Positions 13,098-35,200 of a stretch of DNA of 64,000 bases are shown piece after piece. A model generated the notes under the pieces. That model ran no database searches. It worked only from the letters and a program-made list of their open reading frames with translations, and had not been told where the DNA came from. Position numbers and translations under genes: made by a program. The stretch's first letter is position 1. Each line of letters begins with the position of its first letter. Source of the DNA: Halichondria panicea (Eukaryota; Porifera; Demospongiae; Suberitida; Halichondriidae); NCBI RefSeq assembly GCF_963675165.1, contig NC_087385.1, positions 1,169,501-1,233,500 of the forward strand, written 5' to 3'.

Positions 13098-16000
13098 CAA
13101 CTATCTTATCGTCTACTTTATGTCCACGTAATACAATTTATAAATGACAACCTACCAATCAGTAATAAACCTTTTATGTCGAGTATGTACATGTACATAC
13201 GTAACGTTTGCATAAATGATGTCATATAATATGTAGCATAATTATAGTACCTGATGTGTTACCACGTACCCCCCCCCCCCTCTAGGATCCCAGAGTGCTT
13301 GATGCAATGCTACCTCACATGGTGTCCCTCTATGGGAACCCTCACTCCCGCACACACACGTACGGCTGGGAGAGTGAGGCGGCCGTGGAGACCGCTAGGA
13401 AGGTGATAATGCCAAATTATATATATGCTTAACCTTTTAGGGAAATAATTTAGACTATTATTATGTAGATTTGCTTGGTTGTATATAGTTATGTTTGATT
13501 TGGTAATAATTATAGAGTCATGGATTAAATTACTCTTGTTATGTAACTTTGTACAATTCCAATAATCATGTGTCCCCATGTACGTGTAGCATATAGCCGA
13601 CCTCATCCACGCTGATCCCAGGGAGATAGTGTTCACTAGTGGAGCAACAGAGTCCAACAACATGACCATTAAGGTACAGAAGCTGGCATATTATTGTTCA
13701 TAGACACTCTCACTGCATCATCTCTGTTTCTTTACAAAGGGAGTTGCTCGATTCTACCAGCCAAAGAAGAATCATATTGTCACAGTGCAAACGGTAAGTT
13801 CTGTATAATTATTCAACATTTACTCTTGCTGTTCCTCAAGCCCCCCCCTCCCTCGTTTAAAACTAGTGTATCACGGCTTCTATCTCTCATGCAGGAGCAT
13901 AAGTGTGTGCTGGACTCGTGTCGTGCCCTGGAGGCGGAGGGCTTCTCTGTGACATACCTCCCCGTGCAGCCCAACGGCATCATCAGTCTCAAGGTGGGCC
14001 GGCCAAACACTAGCTTAACTATAGCTTCAGTGAAGTACCGTATTTATTACATTTTGCAAGACTGTGTACACAATATGATGCTGCTATAATTATGGGCGAA
14101 ATGTCGCACAATTAGAGGGTTGCCTTAAATCGAATAAATAAGGTACTGTAACTGTGTACGTACATTACCTGTTAGGTCAGAGTATATTGGTTGTCACTCG
14201 TTGAATGGCCACATGGCATGTACGTCTCCATGGCTAATTAATTAGCTACATGTTTGTATCTACGATTTCTATAGCCATAAGGATCAGCTAGATATAATGT
14301 ATTTCACTACATAACTATGCAGGATCTTAAAGCAGCCATCACTCCCAAAACCTCCCTCGTGTCTATAATGGCCGTTAACAATGAGATAGGAGTGTTGCAG
14401 CCTCTCAGGGAGATCGGTATGATGTCATTGTGTATGAATGATGACGATGATGGTAGTCATGGTAACTGTACTCGTATGCAGGTGAAATTTGTCGTGAGAA
14501 CAAGGTGTTCTTTCATTCTGATGCTGCACAGGTAAGCTTGTTTGATCTCTTCAGTACACAACCTTTTGAACCTGTAATTCTGAAACCTGATGTTGTGCAT
14601 TTCAAGAGCCTTATATAATGGGAGGGGGTGCAGTTGAGCATTTTTCAACAGCCATAACTTTAGTTCTGATGATACAATTTTTCTGAAAATGTGTTCAAAA
14701 ATACCTTTCAAATGATGTGTGTAAATCCAAAGTTTGATTGGGGCTCACCTTTGGACCATGTATCGGGTCGAAATTAGCAGTCTCCCAAATACGAACATTG
14801 ATGAAACCATTTGAAAGGTATCTTTAGTGAAATTGGATTGACATAACTCAAGTTATGACGACTGAAAGGGTTCCGGAGCCTAACCATATGGCTCCGCTAA
14901 AAATGTGTACCATATAATTATGCCACCTTTGGTACTATTGAATGTAATATTTCTTCTTTCTCCAGATGTTTGGTAAGCTGCCCATCGATGTAACGGACAT
15001 CAAGGTGGACCTGATCTCCATCAGTGGACACAAGATCTACGGGCCCAAGGGGGTGGGTGCTCTGTACGTGAGGAGAAAGCCGAGGGTGAGAATTGACCCC
15101 ATCATGAGCGGAGGGGGGCAGGAAAGGTGGGTGGATTTTGTACGTAAAGCTGTAGTGGAACTGTGCATTTTACTACGGCTTGCAATTGTTAGGCTTGAGT
15201 TTACACAAAAACTAAGATGGGGTACTAGAATTTTTCTTTATTTGGTATTGGTCCATCCTCGTAGTTTTTAATTATGTAGAGCTGTTGATCTCTTTAAGAA
15301 AGTCTATGAGCATTGTGATGTACATGTATGTATAATTTATGTGTTAGTGTTAATTGTACTCTACGTATTGCTATCACCCCAGGGGCATGCGTAGTGGTAC
15401 AGTGCCCCACTTACTGGCGGTGGGTTTGGGAGAGGCTAGCAGAATAGCGGCACAGGAAATGGAGTATGACCACGCTCACGTGAAGCGAATGTCTAAGAGG
15501 CTTATTGATGGTGTGTGGTCACAGCTGGATCATGTGATCCTCAACGGAGACCCTGTTCAAAATTATGAAGGTGATCTATATTTTTAGTATTAGAATTATT
15601 ACCCGAGGCGTGCGTGGGCGGCCACGGGTATAGTAGTCCGTTGGTCTGTTTGTTTGTTTGTGATAGCCTTTTCTACTCACCTGGATGGCACAGCACTGCG
15701 TTTACAGCATGGATAGCCTTCATACAACAATATCTTGGTTTAAATAGTGGCAGATTTTGATGTTAAAGCTTCTTTGTCGAGCAAAAACTAAGAAGCTTGA
15801 ACTTGCACGTTGGCAGCTAGCTAGCTACATGTGGCCTTGACTTTGTATTTGCAGCGGAAGTGATCCGTACCAGGAACAATTGAATAGGGTCAAAGTACGT
15901 AGAATTGTAACTGGGTTGGTTGTTGTTGACTAGACTGACTCTAGCTCTGGATCCTACTCTCCAGCCTGGCAGGAGCCATATATACTTCTCTAAGTCTAAG

Positions 16001-17769: not shown

Positions 17770-18608
17770 TCAAAAACAAAAACATTTTCTGCGGTTATTA
17801 TCATTGTCAAGTTCATCCATACTCAACAACAACCTACTAACATCTCTTCCAGTCTCTTCAATTCCAACTTGATTGAACTTCTTGTCCACTACCTCGATGA
17901 GGGTCTGAAATGCTTTCTCCACACTTCCCTCCGTGTGTGTCGACACTCGAGCACTCAAATCCATGTTGATACTGTGTGTTGTCATGAATGCCAGTATGGC
18001 TTCATCTCTAGCGGTAAGATTTTTACTGTCAGATTTGTTCCCCCAGAGAGCGAATACTAAACGATCGCTCCATCGGCTATTTTTACGAGCCTCTTTGATC
18101 CAGTCTGACAGGTGGTAGAGAGTGTCCTCGGCTTCCAGATCGTACACTAGGATCACAGCGTGGGCATGGCGATAGTAGTTGGCAGTCATGGAGTCGTATC
18201 TCTCCTGTCCACCAGTGTCCCAAAGATTCACCTGCATGGAACACAATTAGATCTAGTGTCAGAGTATGCTTTTGGGTCAATCTTGACTTTTCGTTAAGTA
18301 CGTGCAGCAAGGTGGTTCGAACCGATTCAACAGCACGTAACAGGCTAACGACAGCTATATCAATTTTAGTAATTAGAGGAATGCTGCTTTACACATAGAC
18401 AGGCATAATTTACCTTGATCTGTCTTCCATTTGCCTCAGTCTCGTGTTCCAGTCGCTCCAGGCCCATGTCAGTGAGGGCAGCCCTAGAGTCATCAGGGTC
18501 TGTCTCGTCAGGATCGTATTTAGGAGCCACTCCTGTCTTGATGTACTGGAACAGCTCAGTCTTGCCAACACCCGCACGCCCAGCTAGGATAACGTTGTAT
18601 TCTGGCAT
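17770..18608 (-). CDS. Rab-like small GTPase with CaaX-type tail (cluster gene A)
   Basis: Two exons, 18414-18608 and 17770-18231, 218 aa. The ATG at 18608 is used because the longer reading begins with GTG. G1 is GRAGVGKT, G3 is WDTGGQE (the only cluster member keeping the catalytic Gln, but the preceding Ala is Gly), G4 is GNKSD and G5 is reduced to LSAR. Between G1 and G3 lies an acidic stretch (DPDETDPDDS) in place of a standard switch I. The tail KCFCF fits a CaaX prenylation signal. It probably binds GTP and is membrane-attached; its exact family is not recognised. The phase-0 intron just before G3 is shared by the whole cluster. Its 3' end converges with NFS1. Confidence 0.85.
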
Positions 18609-18876: not shown

Positions 18877-19803
18877 TCAACACGAGCATCCACTCTTTCC
18901 AGTTTTACTTTCATTCGAATAATCATCCAAATGCACAACACTGCCAGTATCTATTCCGGTATTCTGTCGCAGCGACGGATAACTCTTTGTGTGAGTAAAA
19001 TGAATTTCTTTTAATAGCTCATTAAATTGTTCCATGATATGACCATCGTCATTGGAAACATCCACTTTAGCTAATAGACGAACTTTCTCCTCGTTCCTAT
19101 CTTGAAAACCAGTTACATTGGCCTCCTCAACAGAATTCCAACCAGAGCCTTTGTTACCCCATAGAGCACATACTGGTTGCATTTTCCCCCTCGCCCATCT
19201 CAGCATTTTGAGCCAGTGCTGTAGATTGTTCAGTGTCTCCAGATCCGTAGTGTCGTACACGAGTATAGCACCATCCGCCGAAAAGTAGTAGCTCTTTGGA
19301 GACACCACTTTTGAGGGTGTGTCACTCACACGGACCTGCATGGTTACAAAACAGACAATGTTATCATCAAGGGTATACATAATAGAGGGAGGGAAACTAA
19401 CAGCAGCTCACGTGCACGTGTACTGTGGTGTCATGTTACTTTCCACACAGTTTTTCTGTACTAGATTCTAGATCTTATACGTTCGATACTCATTGTACGT
19501 ATGTTTGTAAAACACATGCACATTTTGAGAATGCATGGTGAGAACAAACATTAACTGGTGCATAGAGAGTGTATGTGTGTTAAAGTGTCAGTGCTGTACG
19601 TGCTAAAGCCTGTCTATATATTAAAGAGCATAATATACCTCTACAGTTATGTCAGACACAGTAAAAGTAGCAGTCCAACTGTCTCTTGTCTCCTTTCTCT
19701 TATCAGGAGCCAGATTTGCCATGTACTTAAACAATCTAGCTCTCTCCGTTGATTCATCTCCCATTAGAATGATCTTATAGCATCTTTCCTTCGCTTCAGC
19801 CAT
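18877..19803 (-). CDS. Pseudo-GTPase with degenerate nucleotide-binding motifs (cluster gene B)
   Basis: Two exons, 19639-19803 and 18877-19335, 207 aa, open throughout and split at the same place as its neighbours. The fold is recognisable (CYKIILMGDES at strand 1; ADGAILVYDTTDLETLNNL at strand 4), but the P-loop Gly-Lys-Thr is replaced by DESTERAR, the DTAGQE region by VSDTPSKVV and NKxD by GNKGS. The tail SGCSC keeps a C-x-C geranylgeranylation motif. An intact frame, conserved splice sites and a kept lipid signal argue for a protein that no longer binds nucleotide normally rather than simple decay. No function is known. Confidence 0.75.
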
Positions 19804-23845: not shown

Positions 23846-24628
23846 TCAACAACACCCACTCTTCATTTTTGGAGTTGAAACTGTGCTAATAATTGGTAGT
23901 AAGTCACTGTCTACTCCTGAATACTTTCGCGGTGTTCCAGCTCTTTTTCTGTGCACGTACTTAACAACTGCGTCTAACGACTCTTTAACATTTGCTCCAG
24001 ATTTGGCAGATGTATAATAAAGCAGAGGTGTTCCCAGGTGCTTCCCCTTAGCTTTAATGCTACTCTCTTCAATTTCAAGATGTAGATCAGCTTTGTTACC
24101 GATGAGGGCCCAAACAAAATCCTCGGGATCGACAAATTGCAGGGCATTCTCAATTTCGTCTTCGATTCTTTCAAAACTGTACTGATCTTCGATGCTGTAC
24201 ATCAAGATAGCAGCGTCGGCATTTGTGAAGTAGTTGGAGGTGAGCGTTCGAAACCGTTCCCCTCCTGCCGTGTCAAACACATTTGTCTGTGTATGAGTTA
24301 AAGTCAAACAAAAATGTATCAAATAAGTAGTTTCATGATATGCTATATATAGGACAATGATATCAGTAGATTTAGATGTTTATTACAGTGTGTGATTTCT
24401 TACGTGTGATTTCTTACATGTATCACTGTATCACTGTCCTACCTTGACTTCTTGCCCATCTATGACAATGCGATGCTCCAAATGCTCCACTCCAGTGCAC
24501 ACAGTGGTGGGGCTCTCAGCTAGAAAGACCTCATCTCTCACTCTGAAAAAGAAGCTTGTCTTTCCCACTCCTGGTTCTCCCAGCAATATGATCTTGTATT
24601 CTGGAGTTAAGATATTATAACTTGCCAT
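23846..24628 (-). CDS. Rab-like small GTPase (cluster gene D)
   Basis: Two exons, 24443-24628 and 23846-24286, 208 aa. G1 GEPGVGKT, G3 FDTAGGERFRTLTSNYF, G4 GNKAD and G5 TSAKS are intact except that the catalytic Gln of DTAGQE is Gly, which predicts weak intrinsic GTP hydrolysis. The tail KSGCC is a di-cysteine geranylgeranylation signal typical of Rabs. The intron falls just before G3, as in its neighbours. It is the first of a run of minus-strand relatives extending to 29.1 kb. The specific Rab subfamily is not recognised. Confidence 0.88.
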
Positions 24629-24944
24629 ACTAGAACTACAACGGTCAGTGAATGTAACAGCTCAGCAAATACAAAGAACAAGCCCCTCCCATCTTCTGCA
24701 AAAGAATGGAATGCTAATTGGCAAAGACTAAGGATCTAACAATGAATGGCTAGTGCACATGTGCTGGACTAATAATAATGCAGGCCATAAATGTAGATTA
24801 GCATTGTCATTCTGTTTCATGCTTAGCAATGAGACAAGACTGTAGAATGTGGGCATTCCACTGATTGTATTAATTAACATGCTGCTGATAATTATAGGAG
24901 AACAAATCAGTGAAACACATGCATAACACAGGAAAACATGGGCT
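24629..24944. other. Upstream flank of GTPase D, duplicated
   Basis: This stretch and 25305-25440 share long similarity (for example gtaacagctcagcaa and tggctacagtacacatg-like wording), so the 5' flanks were duplicated together with the genes. No coding frame is recognised. Confidence 0.55.
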
Positions 24945-25110
24945 AGCTATATCTAGACTTCTTAGTCTTGCTGTCCCGAGAAAGTGTAGTTCTGAAACAC
25001 CCTCTACAGACTATAGACAGCTCCAGGGATCGTTGGTGAATTCTCACACCACCATGCACTCTCGGAGGCTCAATACCACCTCTCTCAGAAGGTCACTTTG
25101 ATCTGTCATT
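24945..25110 (-). pseudogene. GTPase fragment: start codon region fused to C-terminal remnant
   Basis: The segment 24945-25060 aligns with the last ~110 bp of gene E (tctagacttcttagtcttg, then the GASEP/ELS tail coding region with small gaps). About 25099-25110 matches the beginning of gene E's first exon (gatctgtcattatcataaga). Everything between, including the whole G domain, is missing, so this is an internally deleted copy. The 3' flank also matches those of the neighbouring copies. Confidence 0.7.
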
Positions 25111-25579
25111 ATCATAAGACTTTTAATATAAAATAATTATGAGCTATTTCCACTGAATCAGATTTTTATGGATGCATGAGATCTCAAATTAACCAATGCA
25201 TGTGCATTTAATTAGGATTCTATATTGCTGATACTATATATTTCAACAAATCGTCTATACTATAAGGAAACTGTAGATCTACTCTGATCTCTCAATGTAA
25301 TGTAACAGCTCAGCAAGCCCCTACCATCTTTGCATGCAAATGATGACCAAATGCTTGGTAACAAACAATGGCTACAGTACACATGCAATGCAATCCAATG
25401 CAGTCCATAAAATAATGCTGATTTGCCCAGAGCATTGTCACTCAAGCATTGTATTCTAGCAACGAGACAATAATTTAGATGCAAGACTGTTTCGCAAGAC
25501 TGTGCATAGATGTGCACAGGCATTCCATTAACATAATAATATACAAATCAGTAGAAAACACACCCATAAATTAAATGGG
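25111..25579. other. Intergenic between GTPase remnants
   Basis: Holds a second copy of the flank seen at 24655-24830, then the AT-rich 3' region of gene E. No gene recognised. Confidence 0.5.
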
Positions 25580-26275
25580 CTAGCTGCATCTAGACTTCTT
25601 AGTCTTGTTGTTCTCAGAAAGTGTAACATTTGGTTCTGAAGCACCCTCCACAGACAGCTCCCTTTTCTCCAGGGAGCGTTTGTGAACTTCCATGATAACT
25701 TCTTCCAGTGATTCCTTCACCATTTCCCCAGTCTTTGCTGAAGTAAAGAAATGAAGCTTGGCCCCAATTTCTTTGCACATTTCTTCGATAGTGTGGACTT
25801 CAATCTCCATTAGCAAGTCATATTTGGTCCCTACCAACGCCAGTATGCAATTGTCGAAGTTGGGCCCCGAAACGGTATTCTCATACCAGTCTCGCACGCT
25901 CTCTAATGTGAATCGTTCTTCAATACTGTACATGAAAATAATCGCATCTGCATTCAAAAACAACCTGTTGTGATTCATAAGCCTGTAGCGATCTCCTCCA
26001 GTTCCGGGCATGTCACACAGTTGTACCTGTGTTAGTTATTTTAAGATTCAATGATTGAGTTTGGATCTGATTCTCACCGTAACATCACAATCTTCTATTT
26101 TCATATGGTAGTCCAAAACCCAGTCATGTCCATTCAGCAATCTAGAATAATCAAGACAAAACTTGTTTCCATCTCTGATCCTTAGAAAGAAGGACGTTTT
26201 CCCAACATTTGGGTCACCTAGTAATACAACCTTGTAATAATGTGACTGTAGTTGTACAGCACCTTGATCTGCCAT
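25580..26275 (-). CDS. Atypical Rab-like GTPase (cluster gene E)
   Basis: Two exons, 26078-26275 and 25580-26026, 214 aa. G1 GDPNVGKTSFF is intact. G3 is strongly altered: CDMPGTGGDRYR in place of WDTAGQERFR, so the Thr/Ala and the catalytic Gln are lost and one residue is inserted. G4 is GTKYD (Thr for Asn). G5 TSAKTGEMVKESLEE is intact. The C-terminus KKSRCS has one cysteine three residues from a normal CaaX position, so prenylation is doubtful. The MADQ start is shared with gene G. The frame and splice sites are intact, so a protein is likely; GTP affinity may be reduced. Confidence 0.8.
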
Positions 26276-26384
26276 TATCATAAGACTTTATGAGCTAATT
26301 TATGTGGGTTCTACTGTTCTACCTGCCCCTCCCTTCTTTTGTTAAAGGTGACCTATTAATTTACGGTATTATACTTGCTGCATG

Positions 26385-26492
26385 CTAGTCTCAATCCCAG
26401 GCCGATCCGTCTCCAATTGAACGCTAGGTCGCCTATTAAAAAAAAATCGGCCTCTGTTGTATTAAAAAAAATCTGCCTGGGACCGAGGCTAG
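26385..26492. mobile_element. 108-bp MITE with CTAG-YCTC termini
   Basis: The left end CTAGTCTCAATCCCAGGC and the right end CTGGGACCGAGGCTAG form imperfect inverted repeats of about 22 bp around an A-rich middle. Related ends occur at 42023-42042 (ctagcctcgataccaggccg) and 42465-42536. There is no ORF. A target duplication is not clear. Confidence 0.65.
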
Positions 26493-26682
26493 CTACATGC
26501 ACATGCTTGACTATACTAGATTAGCACTGTCATAATAATAATTATACATGCACTCTATACATGCAATTCATGCAAACTTGAGCATTTTTGAATATTTAAA
26601 AGTTATTTGAACATTCATGCATGCATGGACCTGATAGCTATATAACAAATCGCATGCGTGCAAAGTATTAAAAACACACACA

Positions 26683-27302
26683 TTAGCTGCATCTAGGCTT
26701 CTTAGTCTTGCTGTCCCGAGAAACTCTAACATTGCTTGGTTCTGAAATTGACAAATAGACAGTTCCTTTTTCTCCAAAGAGCGTACAGTCACAATAAACT
26801 TCTTACAGTGATTCGAATTCCTTCACCATTTAAAAAATGGAGCTCGGTCCCAATTACCTCGCACAATGCTTCGATAGCCTGAGAGTCAATCTTCTCCTCC
26901 ACTGGCAAGTCACATTTGCTGCCTACCAATGCCATTACGCATTTGATAAAGTCAAGTCCGAATGCATTCTCGTGCAACTCTTTGAGGTGGTAAAATGAAA
27001 GTTGGTGTGCAGTACTACATGACTGTGTGAAAATGATTGTATATAATTATCTGTAGTATACAGAGGTAATCCATAAGCTTTTCCCTGGTTCCCAGCAGGT
27101 CATATGGCCTATATATATAAGTTTCAAACTTATACCCATGCAAACATCTATCTTTGTAGTCCAAAACATTACCTCCAATATACAGTGATCAAACGTTTCG
27201 TCAGCAACAGAAATAAGTAAGTTCCCTATAGAGCTGAGTATAACCTCCAGTAATAAAATCTTGTAATAATGTCCTGGCTTGAGTACCTAATTGATCTGCC
27301 AT
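26683..27302 (-). pseudogene. Decayed Rab-like GTPase (cluster copy F)
   Basis: The 3' part resembles gene E (MALVGSKCDLPVEEK for the G4 region, then RSLEKKELS and a C-terminus ending KTKKPRCS) but is spread over more than one frame. The first-exon region begins MADQ at 27302 yet has lost the P-loop. A G3 region is not found. At least two frame disruptions and the missing P-loop make this a dead copy of the E/G type. Confidence 0.8.
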
Positions 27303-27463
27303 TCTCATGAGCTACAAAATGAAATTGCTAATAGTGTAGGCCATAATTATAAGTGGAGATTAGCATAGTATTTCATTACAATAAATGTACAGTAGCCACA
27401 AATCAGTGAAAACACACGCATAATGATACAGAGGCAAAAAACACCTAATAATATTATTGGGCG

Positions 27464-28154
27464 CTAGCTGCATCTAGACTTCTTCGTCTTGTTGTTCTCA
27501 GAAAGTCGAACATTGCTTGGTTCTGAAGCACCCTCTACAGATAGCTCCCTTTTATCCAATTAGGAGCGTTTGTAAACTTTCATGATAATTTCTTCCAGTG
27601 ATTCCTTCACCATTTCCCCAGTCTTCGCTAAAGTATAAAGAAATGAAGCTTGGCCCCAATTTGTTCACACTTAGATTCGATAACTTCAGGCTCAATCTCC
27701 AATAACAAGTCACTTTTCTTACCTACCAACGCCATTATGCATTTGTCGAAATCGGGCCTGACTCTTTCAGTGGCATTCTCATGAAATTGTTCGACTGTGA
27801 ATTGGTCTTCAATACTGTAGATGAACATAATTGTGTCTGTAGTAACTGTGATAATTCAAACATCTGAACATAAATTTCCCCTCCGGCCCGGGCATGTCAT
27901 ATACTTGAACTTGTATAAAATTATCATAATATAACATAATCATTGTTTATAGATCTCACCAAAACATCACAATCATCTATTTTCATATGGTAGTCCAAAA
28001 CGTAATCTCCAAATGTAGACGGATCAAACTTTTCGTTGTCGAAAAGCCCATCCCTGATCCTTAGAAAGAAGGATGATTTCCCTACACCTGAGTCACCCAG
28101 TAACAAAACCTTGTAATGATGTCGTTGTATTTGTACAGCACCTTGATCTGCCAT
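27464..28154 (-). pseudogene. Recently broken Rab-like GTPase (cluster copy G)
   Basis: Exon 1 (27960-28154) is perfect: MADQGAVQIQRHHYK, G1 GDSGVGKSSFF and a normal donor. Exon 2 is damaged. The acceptor reads tacaag instead of cacag. The switch II region is out of frame before MFIYSIEDQF. Two bases are inserted after KLHFF (near 27635) relative to gene E, and the segment coding KRSLEKREL carries another small insertion (near 27560). G4 is GKKSD. The tail would be KKSRCS. Clean exon 1 beside a ruined exon 2 implies recent decay, or an assembly error that read evidence could test. Confidence 0.75.
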
Positions 28155-28398
28155 AATGTACTTTGTCACTTATACACTACAACAGTACTAGTATGTACGT
28201 GTACATACTATATTGTCCACTGTGCAAGAAACTGCACACCTTTCTTCTTCCCAGCGGCCTTGAATCGAGGCTAATGCGCAATATCCTCAGCCACACCCCA
28301 AAAGGTTCACACAAGCAACCTTTTTCATATAATTATAAACACACACACACCATTAGAAAATACACACACACACTAACTTTACAATAGTTTATAGAAAA

Positions 28399-29093
28399 TT
28401 AGCAGCATTTAGATTTATTGGTGCTACTGCCAGGAGTGCTAGTGATCTTGACCCCACTCGGTCGGAAAGTATCCATCCCATGCCCAGTAGCTCTTCTAGC
28501 CATGGACTGCTTGTGCACTTCTCTGATAACCTCCTCCAGTGATTCCTTAACCATTTCCCCCGTCTTTGCAGAAGTGTAGAACTTGAGTTTAGTCCCAATA
28601 TTTTCACACTTTATATCAACACTTTCCTCATCCACCTCTAGAGGTAGGTCAATTTTATTTCCCAGAACACCCCACACAAAGTTATCAATGTCGGGTAAAG
28701 CTTCAGACGCGTTTTCATACCATTCTTGGAGATTCTCAAATGTGAATCTGTCTTCAACACTGAACATGAGAATAGCAGCATTTGCATGCCGGTAGAAATT
28801 GGAGGTCAAAGTCCTAAATCTCTCTCCTCCACCAGTGTCGTGCAGGTGGACCTAAACAGAGAGAAAACGAATTGAGTTTTAGTCACAAAATTACTTTATG
28901 GTCTTACTAAGATTTTGCAGTCGTCTATCGTCATTTCGTATTTTAGATATTCCACTCCACTCAGTATCGTGCTACGTAGCTCTTCTGTCTCAACAAAGTT
29001 CCCATCTCTGACCCGTAGAAAGTAGCTGGTCTTGCCAACATTTGGATCTCCGATTAGAATGATCTTGTACTCGGTTTTCGGACCCTCAGCCAT
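28399..29093 (-). CDS. Rab-like small GTPase (cluster gene H)
   Basis: Two exons, 28908-29093 and 28399-28851, 212 aa. G1 GDPNVGKTSYF, G3 HDTGGGERFRTLTSNFY, G4 GNKID and G5 TSAKTGEMVKESLEE. The catalytic Gln is Gly and the Ala of DTAG is Gly. The tail KSKCC is a di-cysteine prenylation signal. It is closest to D and E in wording (AAILMFSVEDRFTFENL). It is head-to-head with gene I (197 bp between starts). Confidence 0.88.
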
Positions 29094-29290
29094 TTCTCAC
29101 AGGCAAACAAGATATCAAAATTATTTGCTGGAATGATCTGATCGACTACCGGACCACGCCCGCCCGTGCATCGGTAACATGTGATCAGGGAAATCCCTAG
29201 GTTATTCCCCTTCCAGCAACCTCTGCACTTTGGTCAACAAACACTGAGATTGCACATTGAGGTCAGACACATAAAGTTGCTTTCAGTGAG
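29094..29290. promoter_or_regulatory. Divergent promoter region between two GTPases
   Basis: A 197-bp gap between the starts of genes H (-) and I (+). No clear TATA box; gcatcggtaacatgtgatca is present near 29168. Shared control of two cluster members is plausible. Confidence 0.45.
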
Positions 29291-30287
29291 ATGGCAGCTG
29301 CTCCTAGCCGAGGTCCAACATATAAAGTGGTTCTTCTTGGAGAGCTGGGCGTGGGAAAGACGTCTATGTTCAGGAGGCTGAAGGACAATTCCTTTGATGA
29401 GTACCAGACTGCCACCACTGGCATTGATAGCTGCTCAAAGGTCGTCAAGTGTGATGGACAAACTATTATGGTGAGACTTTGGGTACATGTACAATGGCGT
29501 GTACAAAAGGGAAAGTAAAATCCTTCTCAACCGCAACCCCTAAGGAAAAGCCAACTACGATAATTATTACTGAAGGCCCCAGTTGGTGTACAAAACAAAA
29601 CAAAACAAAAGCCAGATTCTGTAAACGTGTTTTCCAGTATGTTGAAGAGGTTCCACTGTATACAGTGTATGTATCCATGTTGCTATTGACACAATAACGC
29701 CTGAAATGGAAATTGAATCTATAAGCATACAACTGTATTAAATATGTGTTGTGGCATTGTATAAGTATTACCATGCACTTGTGACCTTATAGACAATTGA
29801 TACGCTAAACAACCTCCCCCCCCCCCCTCCACAGCTGAGCATATGGGACACAGCCGGAGTGGAGAGGTTCAGAACGCTAACCAGGAACTACTACCGGAAT
29901 GCTCATGCCGCAGTTTTTGTGTACAGTGTCTCAGACGCCTCATCGCTACACTACCTGGCACAGTGGATCAAAGACGCTCAAAACTTTGCCCCTAATGCCA
30001 CTCGAATGTTAATTGGAAATAAAATAGATGTTGAACCTCCGGAGATAGACTCGACGACAGCTGCTTCATTTGCGCAAGCTCACGAGTTCGAACTGAGTTT
30101 CACTGTATCTTGCAAAACTAATCGAGGAATAGCTGATGCTTTTGAAGCGCTTGCCAAGACCTTGCACTCTGCACCCAAGGGTTCGGACGATCCCTCGCAA
30201 CGAACCAAGTCTGTGATATATGGAGATCAATTGAACCCTGGAAATCCAACTGAGACTGTTAACGAGGGCGGGGGTTGTAGGTGCTGA
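29291..30287 (+). CDS. Rab-like small GTPase (cluster gene I)
   Basis: Two exons, 29291-29470 and 29835-30287, 210 aa. G1 GELGVGKTSMF, G3 WDTAGVERFRTLTRNYY with Val for the catalytic Gln, G4 GNKID, G5 SCKTNRG. The C-terminus GGGCRC is a classical C-x-C Rab prenylation motif. The AHAAVFVYSVSDASSLHYL block is Rab/Ras typical. The intron has the same position and phase as the minus-strand members. The acceptor follows a C-run at 29815-29831. Confidence 0.88.
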
Positions 30288-31021
30288 CTGTACACGTGTT
30301 TATATAAGTATGCACTTTGTGAAATGTTGATTTAGTTGCTTTGTATATGCATACAGGTCTGAACATGCATGTACTTCTATATTCTTTTTGTAAAAATGAA
30401 CGATGGGCATGACTGTTTTTGTTGTTGTATATAATTTACAAAGCCATGTGTCAATTAAGTATATAATAAAGGAGATGTACCTATAAATAAAGTGTAATAA
30501 GTAAAGGCACCTAGGGTTTTCTGATACGTGTATTTGATGGTAGCTATAGTTAATGATAATTTTTGTGCCTATAATTATAAGACGACATTCCCAGGGTTGA
30601 ACTTGCAGTATTATATAACGATAATTATGTCATAGACACGTGATGGTATAAGTACGGTAATTTATTTAAAAGTATATATTTCCCCCAATAAAATGTTGGA
30701 CCAAAGAACTATTGTCTGGAAACAACAGTGACAGCAGATCACAGTCAAGTACCTATCCTTATACGTATGGTAATGCTAATGAGGGTATTAGGTATGAAAT
30801 ACCCCAACACCTTCATTTCCGCATTTGCACAATATGATGTAATAACAAGCTTTTATATTACATTTGTACATTTGCCAATTGAATTGTTCACTGTATTCCA
30901 AATAAGAATTATGGTGGCGTGTCTTTGGGGAAATCTTAATGCATGTGACAAATTACTACTACATAAAAACTGATAAGAATCAGCAAAATCACACAACTAA
31001 GAAACTCAATAATTATACAAG
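30288..31021. other. Intergenic between GTPases I and J
   Basis: Holds the probable 3' end of gene I, with AATAAA signals at 30465-30470 and about 30486-30491. The rest is AT-rich, with no coding frame recognised; the promoter of gene J should lie in its last part. Confidence 0.55.
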
Positions 31022-31942
31022 ATGACTAATCTTCTGAGTCCAGATACAACACACTTTGGAAATGTTCGACTGTCTAGTAAGAACGAAGTTACCAGAGTGA
31101 GACCACCCAAGCAACTGGAGAAGATGGTACTCAAAGCCGTATTGCTAGGAGATTATGGAGTGGGGAAAACCACTCTATTCAGGAGGATACGCGAGCAAGA
31201 GTTGGTTGTCAGTGAGGGATCAACATCTTGGAACAGTCAGTCAATGGATCTGTGCAATACAACCATCACCACTTCAGACAAGAAAAAGGTTGAGGTAAAG
31301 CAAATTAAAGAAAAGTATGCTCAAGAAAGCAGATTTTAGTTTCCTACTTACTGTACATGTACATGTGTGAATTACTGTACATGCACATGTGTAAAGGACA
31401 GACCTATTTTAAATTACACAAATAATTGTAACCACAAGGTAAACAAATTTCTGTTTCTCTAGTTGAACCTGTGGGACACAGCTGGAGCAGAGAGGTACAG
31501 AACACTTACACTCGACTTCTTCAGAAAGGCATTGATTGTGTTCCTAGTCTACAGAACAGACAATCCTAGCACACTCGCTAATTTACGCGTATGGAAGACC
31601 GAAGCAGCTACTTACGCTCCTCCAGGAACAATGTTTGTGCTGGTAGGTAACATCATCACAGACAGTAAGGTTGATTTGTCTACGGAAACGGCTGATGATT
31701 TTGCTAACACAGAAGGTATTTCGATTCACTTTCGACTGTCAATCACGACTACACCTAAAAGCAGCCTCACTGGCATGCTAACAAGAGTTGTGGAGGAAGT
31801 GCTTAAATTAAGATCATCAGACACTGTAGCACGATGCGCACCTACATGCACGAGAACAATCATTCTACACAAACATCCTTCAACTCAAGACTTAGATGAC
31901 CCTGAAAACTCTCCAAGTAAAAGATTGTGTTGGTGCTCGTAA
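31022..31942 (+). CDS. Atypical Rab-like GTPase with N-terminal extension (cluster gene J)
   Basis: Two exons, 31022-31294 and 31463-31942, 250 aa. The first ATG gives a 34-residue extension before the G domain; an internal ATG at 31124 (MVLKAVLLGDYGVGKT) would give a normal-length start. G1 GDYGVGKTTLF and G3 WDTAGAERYRTLTLDFF (Ala for Gln) are present. G4 is GNIITDSK, which lacks the Asn-Lys-x-Asp guanine contact, and no clear G5 SAK is seen. The tail RLCWCS fits a CaaX box. Guanine specificity is doubtful. Same intron position as the other cluster members. Confidence 0.8.
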
Positions 31943-31951
31943 TTCATTTAA

Positions 31952-32098
<147 letters not shown>

Positions 32099-32241
32099 TA
32101 TTCACATGAACAAATTCACTTCAGTTGAGACATTGCATACATTATTCACTCAAATCAACAAACAGTGTCATTATGTCATTATGTCATTATGTTATGTTCG
32201 GTGTCATTTTGAAACAAAATGTATAAACCACGTTACACAAT

Positions 32242-35200
32242 TTAAGTGAACAGTCTAATTATAGAGTCAGCCCCTGCACTAATTAACCACGGCTGAACGG
32301 GGTGAAACACACAGTCTAGAACACCTGCAAACGTAGGTGTGGTCGGTCAACAAACGCTGTTAGTTATAAGTCACATGACCTACCCATGTTGTTGGAGATT
32401 GGTCCACCTCGTAGCACCTTCACCGGGACAATCTGCGGATTCTGCATCAGGTCACTGCAAACCAACGTAGGGTGTGTGTGTGTGGGTTAACGAGTAAATG
32501 GATATGGGGAGTAGGCCTTGCCCAATTATGCTCAAAATTTTGCCTATTAGTCTAGTCTCCAAGTCTCATGCATTGTACCCAATTAGTCTTTAATTATTAC
32601 CCAATAAAAATCATCAACGAGAATTATACTGCAACGTATATCACAGACGCTTTTACATAACGTTCTTAAGGAACTATATTGGTGAAATAAATCTTAGGAG
32701 AAGAGTCAACTGATCTAGTAGTACTGACTATAGCACCTTCCATACGTATACGTACTCAGTATTAGCATTACTCATGCTATTGAGGCTATAGTGCTTCTAT
32801 AAAATCATGCTTTCTACTAAAAATTGCGCTGGCATAATGCTCAATGCTCCACCCACCTATTAGTCTCAAAATTATGCTAGCATAACTATTGGGCAAGGCC
32901 TAATGGGGAGTATACAGAATTACTATTTGGTATCATGATCCTTGCCAGATAGCAAAGTATCAAATAAATGTTCTGCTGATTTGGTTCATTCGCAAAGGTT
33001 TTCACTCACAAAACATGTTAGTAATATGGTGCGTGTTTTGACAAGATCTGTGTGCGTTTAAACTATATTCTTGCATGCATGAGCTCACTTGAAGACTTGG
33101 CCGTGGCACACGACAACAGAGCTGTCGTCACTGGCCGACGCAAACAAAGGCAGGCGAGGATGACAGCACACAGAGCGTATGGCCTGCTTATGGTGCCTGT
33201 AGTAGTAAACCAACAACACTTACAGCTGTACTCTCGATCACCTTCAGTGTTTACATACAGCATTGTGTGGGACAATACCGACTCCTAACAATGCACACTA
33301 CTCAAATAGTTGAGCACAATTAATGATTGTAACGGCCCATGCAGCAAACACACATGAACTTTCATATAGGAAGTTCCCCAATAATGCTAACTCAACTCTT
33401 AGCAAGAGTAGATGATGTAATACAATGCAACCAGGAGTGGAACATACTCCTGATGCAACATAAGGGAGATTGCTTGTAGCAACACTACAGGGTTCTCGTT
33501 AAAAAGGCATAAAGGGGCCCTGCTTAAATTATTGGGCACTCTCTGCCCGCTAAAAACCTTTTACGACTTTTAGCTTTCTAGTTGTTCCAAGTCAACATGA
33601 GTTCAGTAGTGAAGCTGCTACTGGACATACTTCTAAAAAGCATTGAGCATAATTATAACATCTATATGTAAAAGAGCTCCTGTTAAGCTTTCATAAAATG
33701 ACTGATCAGAATTCTATTAAAAGAGCCGACTTGACTAAAAATGCAAGAAATGCGTACCACTTCGAAAATTCAGAGCACATTACTCTGACTGTATTTGTGA
33801 AATAATTATGCTGCACACACATGTATCATCAGATAAGCACCTGAGTGTCTTGTAGGGCTTTGCCGAGAGGTCCATATCGAACCAGACCACCCTCTTGTCG
33901 TACGAGGAGAGGAGGACGTGGTCACCAGACGGATGAACCACCATATCCGATATCCATTTGACCCCAGATAACAGTTTCTTGATCAGCTCTTGCTTCGCAA
34001 GATTGTACACTCTCACGTAGGTCTGAGTCTGTACACACGATCAAAAATGAGCTAGTTAACTCACAGGCATAACCATATAAATTCAAGTTAGGAAGCTCTT
34101 AGGAATAGGTACGTAGAAATATATATTACATGCTTGGATTGTGATGGGCCAGAAAACCATCAAATCATTCGAATTTTTTAAGATCTTATAGCTACAGGTT
34201 ATATAATCATTGTTTCAGACTTACAGCCACAAAGAAGAAAGGTTTGGTTGGATGAAAGGCTACTCTCTGTACACTGCCCTTCAGCTTCTTGAAGGGAGTC
34301 TGAGAGCGAGACTTGGACAGCTGGTGGATGACAACCTCGCTACCACTTGCTATGGAAACAATCGCCACATTATAATAATAATTATAATTATAATAATATA
34401 ATAATAATTATGCACTTACAATCTGAAGAGACTGTAGCAAAGTAATCGCCCTTATTGTGCCAAGTGACTTGCTTCACCGGCTGTACATATGTGTGAATAA
34501 AATAAGGCATGAAAATGAACCTGCATGTATACGACCAATGGATTCCCTCGCTCACCTTATTATGACTGATCCGTATTGCCTCATGGTTTAGAGTGGACTT
34601 GCGGCTCCAGCTATACGCTGACGACTCAGCCGAAGAAAGGTCAAGGTCCGCGATGAACTTATCAGTAGCGGAGACAACCAGTCGATCTCCTAGTCCATGG
34701 TTGACCACCTCCACACTATTGCCACTGCACACATGACATGTACATAATGATATTTTTCTCACAATAAGTATAACAGTACAGAAAAATTCATTATATTCGT
34801 GGGCAAGCTGACTCTAACATTTCCCCACAAAAACCTAGGTATGGTTTACTGGAATTAACACATGCAACACAGTGCAGCACGTAATGAAGCAAACGAAATT
34901 TTTCCTCACGAAATTAAATCACCGGTAATTAACTTACAACGCAACCGCCAATAAAGTGCGAGATTGTCCCGGAGCGAATTCCAGTGAAGTGGGTGTGTCC
35001 TCCAGTGTGACCACACCCATACATCTCCCACTGACTACCTCCCATAGTCGCAGTGTAACATCTTCCCCACCGGACGCCAGCCATTGACCTTTGACCCCCT
35101 CTACGCTCACACATCGAACTAACCCCTTGTGACCTTTATACTCCTGCAGAAATTGATAGTATGCTTCAGAACTTCACAATAATTTATCAGTTTTCTCAAA

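Follow-up and report, generated by a model that had tools for sequence, protein, structure and literature searches.

This study was concerned with a cluster of Rab-like small GTPase genes in the sponge Halichondria panicea, most of which lack the switch-II glutamine (Gln) of the G3 motif. The window, which here means the whole stretch of DNA analysed, spans 64,000 nt of contig NC_087385.1 (C9:1169501-1233500) in an assembly of 131 Mb and 39 contigs, and coordinates given without a contig label are window positions. The region from 17.8 to 31.9 kb contains seven intact Rab-like genes of two exons each, five on the minus strand (A, B, D, E and H) and two on the plus strand (I and J), and two pseudogenes, F and G, sit between genes E and H. 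All seven gene models have a GT donor and an AG acceptor, an open frame and a single terminal stop, and all share a phase-0 intron immediately before the strand leading into G3.

The Pfam Ras model (PF00071) scores above cut-off in all seven genes, in gene B weakly. A profile built from A, D, E, H, I and J was compared with solved structures, and the best 60 of 958 matches were all named Rab, Ypt or Sec4 except one, GH01619p. The same was true, with the same exception, of the best 60 of 909 matches to gene I alone. By both comparisons these genes resemble Rab more closely than they do Ras, Rho, Arf or Ran. When A, H and I were searched singly, the best-scoring match outside the window had 36% identity for A and I and 34% for H, and short pieces of other Rabs reached up to 54% identity over 37 residues.

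The genes differ in how much of the G domain is kept. Gene D (minus strand; exon 1, 24443..24628; exon 2, 23846..24286; Pfam Ras 1.3e-33) has the P-loop GEPGVGKT, the G3 string DTAGGE, NKAD, TSAK and a CC tail. Gene H (minus strand; exon 1, 28908..29093; exon 2, 28399..28851; 1.1e-30) is similarly complete, with GDPNVGKT, DTGGGE, NKID, TSAK and CC. Gene I (plus strand; exon 1, 29291..29470; exon 2, 29835..30287; 3.3e-41) has GELGVGKT, DTAGVE, NKID, SCK and a CRC tail. Gene E (minus strand; exon 1, 26078..26275; exon 2, 25580..26026; 5.7e-21) has GDPNVGKT, an altered G3, DMPGTGGD, then TKYD, TSAK and the ending RCS. Gene J (plus strand; exon 1, 31124..31294; exon 2, 31463..31942; 1.9e-22) has GDYGVGKT and DTAGAE, has lost G4 (which reads NIIT) and G5, and ends in CWCS. 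Gene A (minus strand; exon 1 with its GT donor in phase 0, 18414..18608; exon 2, 17770..18231; 3.8e-25) has GRAGVGKT, NKSD and a CFCF tail, and is the sole window gene to keep Gln, in DTGGQE. Gene B (minus strand; exon 1, 19639..19803; exon 2, 18877..19335; 1.1e-8) has a degenerate P-loop, no recognisable G3 and no NKxD, and ends in CSC. The G3 strings quoted in an earlier note on this DNA for D, H, I, J and E, and the Gln quoted for A, are thus all present in open frames, with a residue other than Gln at DxxGQ in D, H, I and J and an altered motif in E.

The same note had described the Gln-less genes as having intact P-loops and prenyl tails, which holds in part. The P-loop GxxxxGKT is intact in D, E, H, I and J, and also in A, and is lost in B. 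The Rab prenylation motifs are the C-terminal cysteines CC and CXC. Tails of this kind are found in D and H (CC) and in I and B (CXC), but gene E ends in KSRCS, with no canonical Rab prenylation motif, and J, like A, is CaaX-like at best. NKxD is present in D, H and I (and in A) and reads TKxD in E, but B and J have lost it. GTP binding by gene J is doubtful because both NKxD and SAK (G5) are lost.

No window gene combines a complete set of G1-G5 with the switch-II Gln and the switch-I threonine (Thr). Gene A has the Gln, but its switch-I Thr is displaced and it has no SAK, and gene I has the switch-I Thr with Val in place of Gln. Outright loss or alteration of G motifs is seen in B (G1, G3 and G4), in J (G4 and G5) and in E (G3). 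All window genes except I have a switch I of altered length or sequence, and I is the only one with the Rab-like spacing of Thr two residues before Gly; the Thr is one or two residues off in A, D and H and absent in E. The stronger statement, that the switch-I Thr is lost in all members but I, was dropped, as A, D, H and two related genes on contig C8 have a Thr one to two residues off and the outcome depends on the alignment.

A genome-wide census of the pattern D-T-[A/G]-G-x-E-R-[F/Y] gave 35 matches, which are pattern matches rather than individually checked genes, and the reversed control gave none. Gln was present in 24 of them, including gene A, and absent from 11: the window contributes four (G, G, V, A), an array on C10 another four (R, H, H, R) and C12 one (L), and the remaining two have Ser (C2 and C13). 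The proportion without Gln was 4 of 5 matches in the window vs 7 of 30 elsewhere (Fisher p 0.026; treating the C10 array as a single case gives 0.009, and doing the same for D and H as well gives 0.028), p values that serve as a guide only, since copies are related and the cluster was chosen for this very feature. The pattern passes over E, B and genes with a G3 that is more divergent or split by an intron. Among the loci read, additional Gln-less G3 strings were DTAGIERH (C12:695478), DTAGMECY (C8:2745369), DTAGVDKQ (C8:2744275), DTASRERY (C3:6317902) and DTAGMEQF (C16:737998), and on the Ras branch DTAGTEQF occurred twice (C9:150554 and C7:644605). The list of Gln-less genes is a lower bound drawn from the matches listed, the Pfam search having scored 150 of 310 candidates, and it leaves aside three Ras-family exon clusters with zero matches to DT[A/G]GxER[F/Y] (C5:4734000-4878000, C14:5855000-5915000 and C4:1715000-1728000). 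When bacterial and archaeal contigs were scanned with gene H, 25 pattern matches and no relatives were found. The local Rab-like cluster without Gln proposed in the earlier note is real.

Several of the loci outside the window deserve description. Five dispersed Gln-less relatives lie at C8:2744200-2746500, C12:522450-523800, C12:694700-695950 and C3:6317800-6318400 (loci L059, L085, L066, L079, L061, L080 and L067). They carry M, V, L, I or R at the Gln site, and the C8 pair has switch-II insertions. In L061, L064, L066 and L067 a CA-rich intron end runs straight into the acceptor before G3, and translates as THTHTQ or HTQ. The C10 array (C10:2576000-2621400; L044, L046, L047 and L048) is made up of single-exon Rab-like genes that closely resemble one another, and four pattern matches in it have His or Arg in place of the switch-II Gln; one copy reads DTFGQE, another (C10:2612992) has internal stops, and the copies aligned have Asn at the place of the Rab switch-I Thr. 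Ser replaces Gln in genes at C2:8493600-8494300 (L083) and C13:4566200-4567000 (L084, DTAGSERF). The C2 gene (DTAGSERY, C2:8493950) presumably resembles Rab24, judging by exon pieces set against human Rab24.

Alignment with the Rab and Ras families, as the earlier note had proposed, grouped the seven window genes with five dispersed genes (one on C3 and two each on C8 and C12) in one clade with support of 98/98. This tree had 25 rows and was built without the switch-I Thr column and without the Gln column and its two neighbours. A 29-row tree with six more human Rabs, from which only the Gln and Thr columns were left out and from which B and J were removed as the longest branches, again placed the remaining ten genes in one clade (98/96). 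The first tree, with the Gln column included, had grouped the same twelve rows at 97.4 by the approximate likelihood-ratio test and 74 by bootstrap, and the clade was named after that tree had been seen. Within the clade D, E and H form one group (100/99). Outside the clade are the C16 gene and the C10 array, one copy of which (C10_H) is placed near Rab1A and locus L051. The window genes alone as a single clade were not rejected on the 25-row tree (p of the approximately unbiased test, 0.44). Gln is absent from 10 of the 11 clade members with a recognisable G3.

These trees bear on how often Gln was lost. The fewest changes between Gln and non-Gln number six on the whole 29-row tree, but two for the ten clade members together with four canonical Rabs; two changes amount to one loss and a regain in A, or to more losses if Gln cannot return. 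In the wider tree Gln was lost repeatedly, in C10, C16, Rab24 and Rab25. The earlier note had counted four or five independent substitutions in the cluster. Such a number is possible, but D, E and H are one group, the genes are one clade and two changes suffice.

That count had been joined to a functional proposal, namely that Gln was lost repeatedly under selection and that the products are membrane switches deficient in GTPase activity and perhaps constitutively active, with the GTP state locked. Several observations are in keeping with this proposal: D, H and I keep the P-loop and prenyl-type tails; a small or hydrophobic residue replaces Gln in most members, comparable to the Leu of Rab25; and Gln is missing in the C10 array, the C16 gene, Rab24 and Rab25 too, with six changes over the whole tree. 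The intrinsic GTPase activity of Rab24 is very low (PMC4756281), a Rab5 Gln mutant is active for longer (PMC3919270), and a cnidarian Rnd with G3 changes is said to have no GTPase activity and to be active until degraded (PMC7600811). For a Rab5-like protein, loss of Gln may indeed mean always on. Weighing against it, besides the single clade with its minimum of two state changes, are the loss of NKxD and SAK in J and the altered switch I in all window genes but I. In addition, GTPase-activating proteins (GAPs) of the TBC type bring their own Arg and Gln, the Gln of the Rab takes no direct part in catalysis with them, and mutation of the switch-II Gln changes intrinsic hydrolysis little in Rab1 and strongly in Rab5 (PMC3919269; PMC3919270). 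Gln mutants of Rab1 and Rab35 also cannot be activated by some exchange factors (PMC3919269; PMC3919270). Because TBC GAPs supply a Gln and some Gln mutants cannot be activated, the step from a lost Gln to an always-on protein is unsafe. The claim of a locked GTP state is not supported, and constitutively active switches under repeated selection are an unlikely explanation of the cluster.

The opposite possibility is that exchange factors of the DENN type fail without the Gln and that these proteins are locked off, as GDP-bound or empty decoys for Rab regulators. Exchange in the DENND1-Rab35 and DrrA-Rab1 pairs does rely on the switch-II Gln, but TRAPP is able to activate the Rab1 Gln mutant and Rabex uses an Asp of Rab5 instead of the Gln (PMC3919270). 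No exchange factor is known for the window genes, and we consider locked-off decoys very improbable.

Codon positions and the pseudogenes indicate how selection has acted. Differences at codon positions 1, 2 and 3 were 40, 34 and 67% between D and H, 43, 41 and 67% between D and E, and 37, 31 and 55% between E and H, and for the last pair the nonsynonymous rate (dN) was 0.45 and the synonymous rate (dS) 1.67. The protein is under purifying selection in the D, E, H group. The dN/dS comparison suggested in the earlier note was set aside as uninformative for most pairs, in which dS is near or at saturation; pairs with B had little contrast among codon positions. Both pseudogenes are of the E type and on the minus strand. 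F (26792..27286) has a broken frame and an unrecognisable P-loop and G3, and is 70% identical to E in DNA over 283 bases. G (27563..28169) has frame shifts and a G3 remnant, DMPGPEGK, and is 74% identical to E over 757 bases. Identity within the E-F-G array is 69-74%, taken for each pair over its longest alignment. The array is recent, and copies F and G in it are dead. E and G differ at positions 1, 2 and 3 in 14, 9 and 16 of 63 codons in exon 1, in 21, 14 and 26 of 68 in the middle, and in 3, 0 and 1 of 22 near the end. Because DMPG is common to E and G, the G3 change of E probably predates their duplication.

Decay of this kind could be general, with most copies degenerating or serving as nucleotide-independent scaffolds (pseudoGTPases) under relaxed constraint, and the loss of Gln a by-product. 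This would fit the degenerate state of B, F and G, the loss of G4 and G5 in J, the variety of residues at the Gln site (G, V, A, L, I, M, R) and the varying lengths of switch I. However, most G motifs persist in D, E and H, and in these genes second codon positions change less than third; all seven frames are open, and the splice sites are kept. As an account of the whole cluster, relaxed constraint seems to us improbable.

We favour the reading that the cluster represents the tandemly arranged genes of a divergent Rab-like clade evolving by birth and death, whose members are probably slow-hydrolysing nucleotide binders; we give this a probability of roughly 0.55. A Gln-less Rab-like clade with a tandem core is real and apparently lineage-specific, as far as one genome shows. 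Loss of the Gln, or its release from constraint, would date from early in the clade and have been followed by drift at the site. D, H and I, with an intact P-loop, NKxD and a prenyl-type tail, are likely to be nucleotide-binding, membrane-anchored proteins that would bind GTP and GDP and hydrolyse slowly on their own. If they cycle, they would be switched off by GAPs with their own Gln finger, through the TBC mechanism. J and B, and perhaps E, appear nearer to pseudoGTPases. A bolder version, which we consider less likely than not, is that Gln was given up as a family trait and the site then diversified while the nucleotide-binding motifs stayed under selection. The proteins might then be GTP-loaded membrane tags that do not cycle and whose turnover is by degradation or relocation; alternatively, they might be Rabs that rely entirely on the Gln finger of a GAP. 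In either case the array would continue to produce switch-II variants.

Several points weigh against the favoured reading. First, gene A keeps Gln within the clade, which calls for a regain in A or multiple losses. Secondly, branching within the clade is mostly without resolution. Third, canonical Rabs were thinly sampled (four of this genome, six and then 12 human Rabs, and HRAS), and the splice joints of the genes outside the window were set by analogy. Lastly, only in D, E and H is purifying selection clearly visible, with synonymous sites near or at saturation in most pairs.

Comparison with known systems places the clade among several kinds of unusual GTPase. Rab25 otherwise has a canonical switch I and NKxD. 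It belongs to the Rab11 subfamily and resembles the window genes in being a Rab with a residue other than Gln at the same place (DTAGLE, in PDB 3tso and 2oil), but it groups with Rab11A (100/100), which the window genes do not. The residue of Rab24 at this place is Ser. Rab24 thus offers a likeness in its natural loss of Gln, joined to very low intrinsic GTPase activity (PMC4756281), but human Rab24 groups with Rab5A, outside the window clade. In the 29-row tree, with B and J excluded, the window-clade genes stood apart (98/96), and no window gene grouped with human Rab24 or Rab25 as an orthologue would. Rnd and RGK proteins likewise keep the G fold with altered switch-II or other G motifs (PMC5593906, PMC7600811); among pseudoGTPase classes ii and iii, Rnd are binders without hydrolysis and RGK retain some (PMC5593906). 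These are, however, Rho and Ras branches with described biochemistry, whereas the window genes are Rab-like. The divergent Rabs of protists and animals, including RabX, are lineage-specific and outside named subfamilies, as the window genes appear to be from the 34-36% identity of the best outside matches of A, H and I, but Gln loss is not given as a family trait in the available parts of PMC2954822 and PMC3192815. A RabX4 is named for Amphimedon in PMC3425129, and this was the one place where any of the words sponge, Amphimedon or glutamine occurred in the available parts of PMC3425129 and PMC3192815. The Rab25 and Rab24 sections of PMC7818423 and PMC10205766, in the parts available, are silent on Gln, and a search for literature treating Rab25, Rab24, glutamine and GTPase-deficient jointly found none. 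Among the matches listed in the literature on sponge and animal Rab expansions, as covered by titles and the starts of abstracts, with subscription journals mostly outside coverage, such a cluster is undescribed.

The surroundings of the cluster include a long TG/CA microsatellite that starts just past the stop codon of gene J (about 31955-32100) and a minus-strand open frame at 33783-34040 with a sub-threshold match to WD40. A class-V aminotransferase exon (PF00266) adjoins the cluster at 14948-15268 and resembles that of a cysteine desulfurase.

Rabs without the switch-II Gln, such as Rab24 and Rab25, are known as single genes; here they make up an entire clade in an animal, some of it in a tandem array. 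The clade provides natural replicates for the question of Langemeyer et al. 2014 (PMC3919270) as to what purpose the Gln of a Rab serves when the GAP supplies its own. It also corrects a common shortcut in the reading of such sequences, as a missing switch-II Gln does not equal a permanently active Rab.

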